This document shows, piece by piece, positions 4,887 through 53,373 of a stretch of DNA of 64,000 nt (position 1 is the first letter of the stretch; every line of letters begins with the position of its first letter). This stretch comes from an uncultured Granulosicoccaceae bacterium (lineage in GTDB: Bacteria > Pseudomonadota > Gammaproteobacteria > Granulosicoccales > Granulosicoccaceae). The DNA lies in the NCBI GenBank assembly GCA_938003855.1, contig CALKXD010000019.1, positions 1 through 64,000 on the forward strand, given 5' to 3'. The notes under the pieces were generated by a model. It did no database searches. It was not told where the DNA came from and saw only the letters and a list, made by a program, of their open reading frames with translations. A program made the translations under genes and the position numbers.

Positions 4887-5105
4887 ATGAAAATAAACAA
4901 ACCTGGTAAATTAATCCTGACCGGTATCGTCGGCTGTGGCATTTGCTGCCTTCCACTACTATTGCCTGTTGGTGTCGGTTTGGCAGGGCTGTCAATTCTG
5001 GGTTTTTCCTTCAACAGCCTATGGTGTGGATTAATTGCGCTGTTTCTTTCGATTGCCCTGGTCGGGTTCTGGCTCGTTACCAAAAGAAAGACGACGGATA
5101 ATTAG
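4887..5105 (+). CDS. Small Cys-rich membrane protein, MerT/MerF-like
   Basis: A 72-residue protein with two hydrophobic helices (about 9-37 and 44-64) and a Lys/Arg-rich end, so an inner-membrane hairpin. The first helix carries G-C-G-I-C-C-L-P (Cys17, Cys20, Cys21), like the vicinal Cys pair of mercuric-ion uptake proteins MerT and MerF. Cys47 lies in the second helix. The divergent MerR gene and stretched promoter support a metal-linked role, uptake or export. No MerP or MerA gene is nearby, so mercury resistance is not established. The TAG stop codon coincides with the edge of the palindromic repeat that follows. Confidence 0.72.
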   Translation: MKINKPGKLILTGIVGCGICCLPLLLPVGVGLAGLSILGFSFNSLWCGLIALFLSIALVGFWLVTKRKTTDN

Positions 5106-5247
5106 AGCCCAGCCGGAAACAAGCGCTACTGCGCACCACTCAGGCACGCAATCTTTTGCCGACCACAGGCAGTTACTTAAGAACAACTAAGCGCCTACAT
5201 GGGGTAGGCAAAATCTCACGCACCTTCATGATCCTCGCGACACCCTG
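5101..5247. repeat. Palindromic dispersed repeat, copy A (degenerate MITE-like)
   Basis: Bases 5116-5247 align without gaps to the reverse complement of 52530-52661 with about seven mismatches over 132 bases. An inner dyad pairs 5154-5172 with 5195-5213 imperfectly. The left edge (5101-5121) matches about 16 of 21 positions of the terminal repeat seen in copy B; the right terminal repeat is not recognisable, so this copy is partly decayed. It lies at the 3' ends of convergent genes. Confidence 0.85.
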
Positions 5248-27164: not shown

Positions 27165-29303
27165 TTAAAGACAATTGATTACCAGTCGAGTGCCTGTGCC
27201 GGTCACTAACGGCACCTCTAGTGCGGTCACCAGTCGGTTGCTATCAACCGTGGTGCTGCCGCTGCCGAGTTGACTGCCGTCACTGTTTTGCTCTGCCGTC
27301 CAGGTGCATGATTGGCCGCTGGCCGGTTTGAACACACTGGTGTTGCGAGGTGTGACCGACGCGCTCTGGTTATGGTTTGTTGAGCGCAAGGACACTTCAT
27401 AGCGCGTAGCCGTTTCCGTCACTGGCAGGTGAAAGTTGTTTTCAGTGGTTGACCATTCGATGTTCTGGTTGTAGTTGTCGTCCCCGCTGCCCACCGGCGG
27501 TACCGCGCCGGAATTGCTTGCGTTTTGCAGCGCGATCAGGCTCTGTGAGTTCGGATGGTGCCACGGGTTGGTGTTGGCAGGGCTGAGGCCGAACTGCTCA
27601 ACGTCGACGGCATTGAAGTCCCGCCAGCTGTGATCAACACCGGCGGCGAGTACCGAACTAAACGGGATTTTGCCCTCGGTCATAGCCTGAATCAGTGGTT
27701 GTCCCTGAGTCGGGTAGTCAATCGTAGTATCTGCCTTGCCAATATCTATAATCAGGTAGGAGAAGTTATCGCTGCTGCGTGTACGGAATTGCTGTTGGGA
27801 GTTCAGCCAGCTCCAGGTCGATACCGGCTGTGCGCCTTCAGCGCTGTATTGACTGATCAGATCGGTGTGCGGCCCGCGTATCACATTGGCTAGATCGCTG
27901 GACTGCTCTCCCCAGAGTTGCACAAAAAACTCCTGGAACAACGGGCTTGCAGCGAAATTTGTCATCGGCTGACTGGCGTAAATACCAGAGAAAACTGAAG
28001 GGTAGCGCATGCCCAGGCTCAGAGCGCCTCCGGCCCCCATCGAATTACCAACGGCATGGATGTAGTCGGTATCGACGGTAAAATCAGGGTGGTTGATGAC
28101 TTCATCGATAGCCAGCATGACACGTTGCTCGGTGAAGTTTTCAACGTTGCCTCTGTCGGGTATCGGTCCGTCTGTCAGATAGTTGTGGTCTGCAGCATAG
28201 CCGTACCACCAGGTATGCAGTGCGTTTTCGTCGGGACCGGGATCACTCGGAAATAACTGAATTACCTGCCATTGGTTTTCAGTCTCTGACAGCACATTAG
28301 GTTTGCCGCCGAACTCATGTAACCCCACTTGTAGTGGATAAGCGCGGGCGGGATCAAAGTTATGTGGCAGTGCCACCATATAGTTGAAGGCGTAGCCGTT
28401 TAATGTGGGGTTCCAGTTGGCGTAGTCCATGAAGTGGGTATAGATACGTCCTTTTCCCGAATTAAAGCTGGTTGTCAGAATCGCCGTCGGCGTTGCTACG
28501 GTTTCGTTCACTGCTGATGACAACGTATTAGAGCCAGCGACCACAGTTTTGTTCTCGCGGCCGTTGTCGATTGACGTGACTGCGTAGTAGGCATCACCGG
28601 CTTCGTCGCTCTGAGTGGTGTAGACAAATAGACCGGTGCTTGAGTCCAGTGGAGCGCCGCCATCGTCAATCACCAGGTAACCGGGTACATCAATTGAGCC
28701 GTACTTGTGTACAGAGCTGTCCTGATCCACCGGACCCCAGCGGTTCGTCAGCAGTGTGGCGGAGGCCAGGTTGGCGGTGGTGATAGGTTGTTTGGATCGA
28801 TACACATGATAGTGGCTGCTGGAGTCCACCTCGTCCCAGGTCAGAAAGCTCTGGCCACTGCGATTCTCTATAGACAGACCGGTCACTAGGCTGGGTTCCG
28901 GTTCTGAACTTCGGTCGGTGGTGTCAGAGCCACCGGTGTTGTCAGAGCCACCGGTGTTGTCAGAGCCATCGGTGTTGTCAGAGCCATCGGTGGCGTCAGG
29001 GCCATCGGTGTTGTCAGAGCCATCGGTGGCGTCAGGGCCATCGGTGTTGTCAGAGCCATCGGTGTTGTCAGAGCCATCGGTGGCGTCAGGGCCATCGGTG
29101 TTGTCAGAGCCATCAGTGGTGTCAGGACCATCGGTGTTGTCAGAGTTATGGTCGGTGTCGGGGCTGGTATCAGTGCCATCACCCTCGCCACCAGCGCCGA
29201 GGTCGATATTGTCTTCGTTACCGGCATCGGGAACAACGACACTTGATTCTCCCGAGCAACCGGCAAGAGTCAGTGTTAAAAAGATAGGTATTAGTTTTTT
29301 CAA
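27165..29303 (-). CDS. Lipoprotein with Asp/Thr-rich repeat linker and esterase-like domain
   Basis: A 712-residue outer-surface candidate. The leader M-K-K-L-I-P-I-F-L-T-L-T-L-A-G-C is a lipoprotein signal with the lipid-bearing Cys at 16. Residues about 50-125 are twelve six-residue units of type T-D-G-[SP]-D-[NAT], an acidic flexible linker encoded by an 18-base minisatellite. A fibronectin-like segment follows (S-F-L-T-W-D-E-V), then an alpha/beta-hydrolase region with G-N-S-M-G-A-G-G as nucleophile elbow and D-H-S-W-R-D as probable His. Related domains occur in secreted carboxylesterases and feruloyl-esterase-like proteins. The substrate is probably extracellular and ester-linked; not assignable. 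Confidence 0.78.
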   Translation of the reverse strand: MKKLIPIFLTLTLAGCSGESSVVVPDAGNEDNIDLGAGGEGDGTDTSPDTDHNSDNTDGPDTTDGSDNTDGPDATDGSDNTDGSDNTDGPDATDGSDNTDGPDATDGSDNTDGSDNTGGSDNTGGSDTTDRSSEPEPSLVTGLSIENRSGQSFLTWDEVDSSSHYHVYRSKQPITTANLASATLLTNRWGPVDQDSSVHKYGSIDVPGYLVIDDGGAPLDSSTGLFVYTTQSDEAGDAYYAVTSIDNGRENKTVVAGSNTLSSAVNETVATPTAILTTSFNSGKGRIYTHFMDYANWNPTLNGYAFNYMVALPHNFDPARAYPLQVGLHEFGGKPNVLSETENQWQVIQLFPSDPGPDENALHTWWYGYAADHNYLTDGPIPDRGNVENFTEQRVMLAIDEVINHPDFTVDTDYIHAVGNSMGAGGALSLGMRYPSVFSGIYASQPMTNFAASPLFQEFFVQLWGEQSSDLANVIRGPHTDLISQYSAEGAQPVSTWSWLNSQQQFRTRSSDNFSYLIIDIGKADTTIDYPTQGQPLIQAMTEGKIPFSSVLAAGVDHSWRDFNAVDVEQFGLSPANTNPWHHPNSQSLIALQNASNSGAVPPVGSGDDNYNQNIEWSTTENNFHLPVTETATRYEVSLRSTNHNQSASVTPRNTSVFKPASGQSCTWTAEQNSDGSQLGSGSTTVDSNRLVTALEVPLVTGTGTRLVINCL
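28922..29142. repeat. 18-base coding minisatellite, about 12 units
   Basis: Tandem 18-base units such as TCAGAGCCATCGGTGTTG, with a few variant positions, lie inside the lipoprotein gene. The unit length is a multiple of three, so copy-number change alters the linker length and keeps the frame. The open frames on other strands across this stretch are by-products of the repeat. Confidence 0.92.
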
Positions 29304-51279: not shown

Positions 51280-52413
51280 GTGGGTGCTAGACCTGCGTCA
51301 GGCGGCCTGAGCGTTAGGGTGCAGCAGCAGTCACCGATTGCACTCGATGCGCGGCTGCAATGTGCCGCTGGTGAGTTGCTGGCGCTGGTCGGGCCGTCTG
51401 GTGCGGGCAAGTCGACATTGCTGCGTATGATTGCCGGGCTGATGACGCCTGAGTCTGGCACAGTGCACTGTGCTGATCAAACCTGGCTTGACACAGGTAA
51501 TCACATTTGCCTGACGGCGCAGAGGCGCAAAGTCGGTTTTGTGTTTCAACAGTATGCGCTGTTCCCCCACCTGTCTGCGCTGCAGAATGTCGCTCAGGCT
51601 TGTCGGCATCTACCGTCGGCACAGCGCCACTCAGTGGCGCAGCACTGGCTTAAAAAAGTTAACCTTGATGGTCTGGAATCACGCCGGCCGGATCAATTGT
51701 CCGGTGGCCAGCAACAGCGCGTCGGCCTGGCCCGTGCGTTAGCCAGAGAGCCACGGGTACTGTTACTGGATGAGCCGTTTTCAGCGGTAGATCGAGCCAC
51801 TCGTGAGCGTTTGTACGGGGAGCTTGCGACACTTCGACGCGAGTTGTTGATTCCGACGGTGCTGGTCACACACGATCTCGACGAGGCGGTCGTGCTTAGC
51901 GATCAGATCAGTATGTTATCGCAGGGTGTCACGCTGCAAAGCGGCCCGGTGCGCGAGGTGCTAAACCGACCGGTATCCGTGCTGGTGGCACGGCTGGTCG
52001 GCTTTAAAAATATTTTTCGTGGCACTGTGATCGACACCAGCGATCAACGTGCTGTGATTGAGTGGCGCGGTGTGCGTCTTGATGTGAGTCAGCGTGGCGC
52101 GTTCTCTATCGGCCAGGCAGTGCATTGGTGCATTCCGCAGTCGCACATTGTTTTGCACCGTGCTGATCGCCCTTCACGAGGCGAGCGTGAGAATCCCCTG
52201 TCGGGACCGGTCGCCGGCCTACTGGGTATGGGGGACAACACACTGGTGTCCGTGCAGGTTGGCAACCCCGGCAGACCACCGCTGTATTTTTCGGTGCCGA
52301 CGCATGTTGCTGAGCGCAATCAGTTGCAGGAAGGCGTGCAGGTGCGCTGCTCGTTGCTGGCCGACAGCATTCATCTGATGCCGCCTGACCGCATAGGCCG
52401 AAGCCGGCGCTAG
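51280..52413 (+). CDS. modC: Molybdate ABC transporter ATP-binding protein
   Basis: A 377-residue ATPase with Walker A G-P-S-G-A-G-K-S-T, Q-loop F-Q-Q-Y-A-L-F, signature L-S-G-G-Q-Q-Q-R and Walker B L-L-L-D-E-P-F-S-A-V-D. The C-terminal about 130 residues (from about 245) are the MOP/TOBE region expected of ModC, S-G-P-V-A-G-L-L-G-M-G. It should energise ModB on the opposite strand. The GTG start has little room upstream for a better choice. Related sulfate or iron transport ATPases are an alternative, but modA and modB nearby decide it. Confidence 0.87.
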   Translation: MGARPASGGLSVRVQQQSPIALDARLQCAAGELLALVGPSGAGKSTLLRMIAGLMTPESGTVHCADQTWLDTGNHICLTAQRRKVGFVFQQYALFPHLSALQNVAQACRHLPSAQRHSVAQHWLKKVNLDGLESRRPDQLSGGQQQRVGLARALAREPRVLLLDEPFSAVDRATRERLYGELATLRRELLIPTVLVTHDLDEAVVLSDQISMLSQGVTLQSGPVREVLNRPVSVLVARLVGFKNIFRGTVIDTSDQRAVIEWRGVRLDVSQRGAFSIGQAVHWCIPQSHIVLHRADRPSRGERENPLSGPVAGLLGMGDNTLVSVQVGNPGRPPLYFSVPTHVAERNQLQEGVQVRCSLLADSIHLMPPDRIGRSRR

Positions 52414-52510
52414 AAAAAAACATCCAGCACGCTGGCTGCCGGTTAAGCAGTAATTCTGATCATCGGTTTTGCCTGGCTAAAAATTATCACCCGGCTGGCC
52501 TGGTGATCAA

Positions 52511-52676
52511 GCTAGCGCCTATCCAGAAACAGGGTGTCGCGAGGATCATTCAGGTGCGTGAGATTTTGCCTACCACAGGTAGGCGCTTAGTTGTTCTTAA
52601 GTAACTACCTGTGGTCGGCAAAAGATGGCGTGCCTGAGTGGTACGCAGTAGCGCTTGTTTCTGGATGGGCGCTAGC
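52511..52676. repeat. Palindromic MITE-like element with terminal inverted repeats, copy B
   Basis: A 166-base element bounded by 21-base inverted ends: 52511-52531 (starts GCTAGCGCCTATCC) and 52656-52676 (mirror, one mismatch). An inner dyad pairs 52564-52582 with 52605-52623 at 18 of 19 positions. Bases 52530-52661 match copy A near 5.2 kb in reverse orientation. No transposase is present; no target duplication is obvious. Its right end contains the stop codon of the leftward coiled-coil gene. Confidence 0.88.
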
Positions 52677-53373
52677 TATAGTCGTCAAACCGCATGGCGT
52701 TAGCGATTAGATTGGCATTGTTAAAACCGGAAGTCAGCGCTTCCAGAATAACGGTTTGCAATACGGTGCCAAGCACCGCCAGCGTTAGTTCATCGATACC
52801 CGTCTGCACCTGCTCATTGAGCGCTTCGACATCGGCATCAAGTGTTGCACTGCGCGTAGCGGTGGCATCAAAGGAGGTCTTTGCCGTGTCGAAATTGGCA
52901 CTGGCCGTATTATAGGCCTGCAGTGCTGACTGCGACTGTTGCCTGGCCGTATTTAGAGTGTTGAGTTCTTCGGTGGAAAGGTCTTCAATGGTTTTGCCTT
53001 CGGTGAGCAGTTCGGCTTCCAGTGCCTGGTAGGCTTCACTGGTGGCAACAAACGCTTCCTGGGCATTACGTTTTTTCTGTTCGGCTTCGTCCAGCGTTTG
53101 CTGTTGGGATTGCAATTCTTTTTGTGCTGCATCGCGCGCGGTAGTGGCGGAGTCTAGCTCAACAGCCAGGGCATCTAGATTACGGCTGGCCTCTTCAAGA
53201 GATAAATTGCCGGTGGCCTGCGTTGTACGGGTGGCGGGCTGGTTTGATGTTTGTTCTGTCGGGTTGGCGTTACCCTTGGCGTCGGTAAACCGGGCATTCA
53301 GTGCGGCGTTCGATTGATTGTTATCAGATTGCGAGCGCAGCGACGCGTTGTTTGTCATCGGTCCGATCAGCAT
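52672..53373 (-). CDS. Hypothetical coiled-coil protein
   Basis: A 233-residue protein with a polar, Asn/Gln/Thr-rich first 55 residues and a long heptad-rich helix (about 55-190) with alternating Leu/Ala and charged residues (L-D-A-L-A-V-E-L-D-S-A, L-Q-S-Q-Q-Q-T-L-D-E-A-E-Q-K). A short hydrophobic segment precedes the end. No signal peptide and no family recognised. Similar low-complexity coiled-coil proteins occur as cell-envelope or flagellar-region proteins, but nothing here decides. The TAG stop lies in the terminal repeat of the adjacent element, so the original C-terminus may have been changed by its insertion. Confidence 0.7.
   Translation of the reverse strand: MLIGPMTNNASLRSQSDNNQSNAALNARFTDAKGNANPTEQTSNQPATRTTQATGNLSLEEASRNLDALAVELDSATTARDAAQKELQSQQQTLDEAEQKKRNAQEAFVATSEAYQALEAELLTEGKTIEDLSTEELNTLNTARQQSQSALQAYNTASANFDTAKTSFDATATRSATLDADVEALNEQVQTGIDELTLAVLGTVLQTVILEALTSGFNNANLIANAMRFDDYS

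Follow-up and report, generated by a model that had tools for sequence, protein, structure and literature searches.

A 158-bp MITE family of an uncultured Granulosicoccaceae bacterium with ends like those of ISNCY-family insertion sequences

The element at the locus and its family in the genome

The window analysed here, a stretch of 64,000 nucleotides from an uncultured Granulosicoccaceae bacterium (contig CALKXD010000019.1), carries a short palindromic element, named copy B, between two convergent genes. On its left lies a gene for an ABC transporter ATP-binding protein (51280-52413, + strand), molybdate-type by sequence alone, and on its right an ORF of 233 aa (52672-53373, − strand). The mobile core of copy B, 158 bp long (52515-52672, + strand), runs from GCGCCTATCCAGAAAC to GTTTCTGGATGGGCGC and is bounded by a left terminal inverted repeat, GCGCCTATCCAGAAACA (52515-52531, + strand), and a right one, which reads GCGCCCATCCAGAAACA on the − strand (52656-52672), both recognised from their letters. 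Flanking the core are AAGCTA (52509-52514) and TAGCTA (52673-52678), two copies of a target-site duplication that differ at one position, the direct duplication of 6 bp being established over the family. As had been described, no gene is present inside copy B; at its 3' end the ORF on the right just reaches the edge of the element, its TAG stop (52674-52672) being composed of target duplication and the terminal base of the element.

The preliminary description had delimited an element of 166 bp with a near-perfect inner dyad and with inverted ends of 21 bp that carry one mismatch. These ends are present (52511-52531 and 52656-52676), and all 166 nt fold into a single hairpin (z of -14.8 as RNA and -10.1 as DNA), which no shuffled sequence equalled in either form. 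This extent holds for the palindrome, but not for the mobile core; most of the outer AGCTA/TAGCT comes from target duplication and does not belong to the element. The inner stem of the hairpin (52543-52644) comprises 41 pairs, 17 of them with compensatory changes between species, and the + strand is the one that folds better as RNA. Elsewhere in the window, a tandem array (28861-29200) consists of an 18-bp unit in 13 overlapping copies in register, and is possibly an in-frame protein repeat of 6 aa.

A second, degenerate copy (copy A) is located at 5098-5247 on the − strand, in the opposite orientation to copy B as previously noticed, with an inverted match of 150 nt at 92% identity; its ends are damaged, and a TAG codon in the context DN* stands at its edge. 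The initial picture of two copies has been superseded. In the host assembly, which is 98% complete and comprises 6.84 Mb in 312 contigs, the 16-base end motif, with up to two mismatches, has 74 forward and 79 reverse matches, against 3 and 1 for its reversed control, and from these counts about 75 dispersed copies of the 158-bp element are present. A DNA search of the same genome found 45 whole or partial copies, most of them with 93-98% identity, and 64 end-to-end pairings were extracted, a few of them called twice. The core of nearly all extracted copies begins with G[C/T]GCC, ends with GGC[A/G]C and measures exactly 158 bp, TA adjoining it on both sides; in 58 full copies the mean pairwise identity is 92% and the identity to the consensus 96%.

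Tandem dimers are also found, with a period of 164 (158 + 6) and one TAGCTA or TAATTA in common, the arrangement that the target rule predicts if one copy has landed in the target duplication of another. One dimer, at the end of a host contig (C174; L006/L020), has a perfect inverted repeat of about 24 bp on its flanks and is likely an assembly fold-back; this dimer and the flanks that different copies seem to have in common were ascribed to the joining of repeats during assembly.

Short (158 bp), multicopy (about 75), with terminal inverted repeats of 16-17 bp and without coding capacity, the element has the attributes of a MITE, and copy B is confirmed as a member of a family of non-autonomous DNA transposons. 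It is a new MITE family, of a known kind. A search of the available literature for its end sequence or for ISNCY MITEs found none; a Microcystis MITE has been attributed to ISL3, not to ISNCY. Relatives of the element, at roughly 70-90% identity, exist in 12 of 13 congeners, and this conservation over the genus extends to the core, beyond the ends; searches of 11 genomes from other genera of this family and of 15 from the wider class gave no match.

Insertion sites, target rule and insertion sequences with the same ends

For eight copies, the two flanks were fused computationally and the joined sequence was sought in the 13 congeners, whose distance makes base-exact empty sites only approximate. 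Three sites were element-free in congeners, with conserved flanks. One of them (L073) is free in G007 and G012; in G007 the gene continues to ...LLASN-stop (CTCGCATCAAATTAACG), and the host reads CTCGCTTCTAATTA, the MITE and then TAATCAG. The other two (L083 and L015) lack the element in G012, with the neighbours on both sides conserved. Thus, the situation that would speak against a mobile element, two copies only and no empty site in any relative, is not the one encountered, and the suspected mobility is borne out by dispersed copies, target duplications, element-free sites and insertion sequences (ISs) with the same ends. At a further site (L061), the host has one MITE and G012 a MITE dimer (G012:C193, L278) at the same gene 3' end, reflecting either an old common insertion or the reuse of one site.

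None of the 44 host copies with two called neighbours lies inside an ORF of at least 110 aa. The convergent setting proposed for both copies is correct for copy B, and genome-wide it is mixed (24 convergent, 18 tandem and 2 divergent); no clear orientation bias of the copies relative to neighbouring genes was observed. Among 68 3' ends of genes that face an element, 19 have their stop codon inside the target duplication or at its border. Since TAG always results in one frame where the last TA of the target meets the element's first G, some of these stops were made by the insertion; others, such as that at L073, predate it.

The target common to MITEs and ISs is 6 bp (sometimes 7), TANNTA, and is duplicated on insertion. 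For 104 end pairs taken from other genomes, the agreement between left and right 6-mers is 0.769, compared with 0.620 after shuffling (sd 0.011), and no comparable excess of direct repeats appears at other lengths from 2 to 10 in the same pairs. In the host genome, the 6-mers agree in 298 matches versus 254 shuffled (sd 7), and targets are mostly TAGCTA and TAATTA, palindromes in which direct and inverted repeats are indistinguishable; at L017 there is one clear case with an inverted, not direct, target repeat. Non-palindromic duplications of 6 bp include TAGTTA (L224, L128), TATCTA (L164), TAGGTA (L138) and TAAATA (L151), and those of 7 bp include TAGACTA/TAGATTA (L154, L130), TAGACTA in ISRm17 and TAGTCTA in ISMlo5. 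The IS of Vreelandella rituensis (L103) is flanked by TAGCTA; among the full-length ISs, L136 (TAATTA/TAGCTA) is an exception to the duplication.

The 16-bp MITE ends, GTGCCYATCCAGAAAC, match those of full-length ISs that carry an ISNCY-family DDE transposase (NCBIfam NF033593). When 84,980 species genomes were scanned for the end pattern TAGTGCCYRTCCAKAAAC, some single matches being chance, such ends proved widespread among the matches listed, in gamma-, delta- and alphaproteobacteria, Bacteroidota and others. In V. rituensis (L103), they lie 1.68 kb apart around a transposase of 464 aa, which scores 429.6 bits against NF033593, 'ISNCY family transposase' (cut-off 325), and also matches Pfam DDE_Tnp_1. 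Homologous transposases occur at loci caught by the end pattern alone (L136, L144, L164, L128, L219, L147, L220). The ends common to the MITE and full-length ISNCY elements are those of L103, L224, L136, L164, L128, ISRm17 and ISMlo5, and the left repeat of copy B itself matches L103, L224 and ISRm17. ISRm17 and ISMlo5, rhizobial ISNCY-like ISs with NF033593 transposases, have the ends GTGCCCATCCATAAAC and GTGCGCGTCCATAAAC and TA...TA duplications; unlike the MITE, they are full-length (about 1.66 kb with transposase) and duplicate 7 bp instead of 6, and only the ends are in common. More generally, the likeness between ISs and the MITE is confined to the ends, without common subterminal sequence.

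One of these elements belongs to a congener. In G012 (L224), a complete ISNCY element (C144:145-1827, 461 aa) is flanked by TAGTTA on both sides; it resembles the MITE in its ends and 6-bp duplication, and differs in being autonomous and in a slightly diverged right end (GTGCCCATCCAGGCAG). Both ISNCY copies seen in G012, the second truncated by the contig, adjoin a MITE directly across a common 6 bp. A further NF033593 transposase within the genus is present in G010. The preliminary description had placed the transposase outside the window and advised looking for a full-length IS with such ends; the full-length ISs with the same ends, located elsewhere, agree with this.

In the host assembly, fragmented into 312 contigs, a profile search found no NF033593 transposase, and the end matches examined for a full-length IS, a listing that leaves aside about 50 with two mismatches, were MITEs or MITE remnants. 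No autonomous partner is therefore seen there, which bears on the mobiliser and not on the class of the ends. Mobilisation in trans follows from a host assembly without detectable ISNCY transposase, and the mobilising element of the host copies has probably been lost, remained unassembled or fallen outside the bin.

Taking into account that ends and target duplication are common to the MITE and full-length ISNCY elements, we consider it highly probable (about 0.88) that the MITE is mobilised by an ISNCY-family DDE transposase from a full-length IS elsewhere, inserting at TANNTA; from the same ends and target rule we infer that such an enzyme would have moved the host copies. In the proposed mechanism, a transposase of this family (NF033593; relatives of ISRm17/ISMlo5) would recognise the 16-bp ends and cut or copy the 158-bp element, either cut-and-paste or copy-out chemistry being conceivable, and the element would be inserted at TANNTA with duplication of 6 bp. 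Its own duplicated TAGCTA would then be a favoured target, giving dimers with a common 6-bp joint, and the insertions that persist would lie chiefly at the 3' ends of genes, in many cases at a TAG stop codon.

Two further observations concern elements of this type. In a Marinobacter sp. M3C plasmid (L255, 43484-44866), an ISNCY element 87.5% like the Vreelandella one follows on the right end of a further copy, the two being joined through TAGCTA, as in MITE dimers. A separate family of 141-bp hairpin MITEs, with ISNCY-type ends and TANNTA duplications, has many copies in one deltaproteobacterial MAG (JAFDFH01: L130, L138, L149, L151, L154, L202), and the Desulfobacterota loci L204 and L205 also belong to it.

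The hairpin and its possible role as RNA

Across 21 copies from 10 species, with a mean identity of about 80%, 94% of the cells are paired and 22 of 61 pairs show compensatory changes that keep the pairing, a level reached in none of 500 shuffles and far above that of register slides. Of these compensated pairs, 17 belong to the inner stem, beyond the transposase ends. Within the stem, a tandem G-A/A-G mismatch (columns 50-51 with 112-113 of the alignment) is conserved in 17-20 of the 21 sequences; such motifs typify structured RNA or sites of protein binding. The + strand folds better as RNA in all 97 copies compared (about -88 versus -60 kcal/mol on average), with 10-11 G-U pairs versus 2 on the other strand. 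In 17 hairpin MITEs with these ends, several of which may come from related families, strand asymmetry amounts to 35.5, compared with 16.7 for a decayed-palindrome null (sd 6.0; 0/24).

Within the host genome, changes that keep + strand pairs and those that break them are equally frequent (69 versus 72), and co-variation among copies is marginal; individual landed copies decay essentially neutrally, with no visible selection on their hairpins. Our reading is that the hairpin is maintained in the copies that spawn new ones and relaxes after landing, a pattern suggestive of selection acting on the lineage that spreads, perhaps at the RNA level. This upkeep may come from RNA, from DNA structure during transposition or from template repair between the arms. 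Since template repair and cruciform stability would both remove G-T mismatches, the conserved wobble pairs lean towards RNA.

It has been considered that the + strand hairpin RNA is functional and selected in the spreading lineage, for example through a part in the processing or protection of the 3' ends of adjacent mRNAs, or in mobilisation itself. Such a role would add to mobilisation by an ISNCY transposase and not replace it. The compensation across species, the uniform strand preference and the asymmetry over 17 elements speak for it; against it stand the balance of changes in the host genome, the possible kinship of the 17 families, the missing orientation bias to genes, and a ratio of G-T to A-C majority pairs of only 9:2 (p ~0.07) in copies of a single ancestry. 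On balance we regard this role as possible, with the odds against it, and the narrower proposal, that the strand-specific RNA hairpin of ISNCY-dependent MITEs is itself selected, with wobbles that break the DNA palindrome and keep the RNA stem, as slightly more doubtful. No Rfam family matched above its gathering score, with only plant miRNA hairpins below threshold.

Other mobile palindromes and significance of the family

Short intergenic hairpin MITEs of the same working style are known in Correia/NEMIS of Neisseria, the enterobacterial 127-bp RU-1 (ERIC) and 168-bp RU-2, and the pneumococcal RUP, whose transcribed hairpins have been proposed to act on adjacent mRNA (PMC2229807, PMC2759123). 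Their ends differ from those of the 158-bp MITE, and no sequence relation was found. RUP, unlike this MITE, targets TA and is linked to IS630. The invariant TA beside GTGCC could place the present element among such IS630/Tc1-type MITEs with a TA-only duplication; this is very improbable, given the direct duplication of 6 bp, with hardly any excess at 2 bp (0.808 versus 0.795 shuffled), the many copies with directly repeated non-palindromic 6-mers, and the ISNCY transposases in full-length ISs with these ends.

The REP-like family also suggested initially, a REP/BIME-like palindrome spread by a RAYT (Y1 HUH) transposase via single-stranded intermediates, would fit a long palindromic, intergenic, clustered and sometimes tandem element at 3' ends, but is scarcely credible, as Y1_Tnp (PF01797) has no match in the 98%-complete genome although control genomes gave matches, targets of 6 bp are duplicated, the ends are common with DDE ISs, and REPs measure 20-40 bp (PMC3733652).

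Mobilisation by an ISNCY transposase also has to be set apart from the IS1202 family, a former ISNCY group, which duplicates 5 bp near dif/pdif sites and has a TnsB-like transposase (PMC10132070). This candidate was ruled out by the 6-bp TANNTA and the transposase matches to NF033593 and DDE_Tnp_1.

The name ISNCY stands for 'not characterised yet', and its ISfinder subgroup ISDol1 is a candidate assignment for these ends. For this poorly characterised transposase family, the present elements supply a dependent MITE family, a target rule (TANNTA) and an end motif that can be recognised in proteobacteria and outside them. The roughly 75 copies of one genome, together with congeneric families and independent ones with the same ends, constitute a dataset on the upkeep of MITE hairpins, which could test an RNA role against DNA cruciform and template-switch repair in bacterial MITEs. 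If the RNA hairpin is indeed selected, constraint would act on the RNA of the spreading lineage and leave each landed copy free to decay, and the element would amount to a structured RNA that is mobile, more than a pair of transposon ends.
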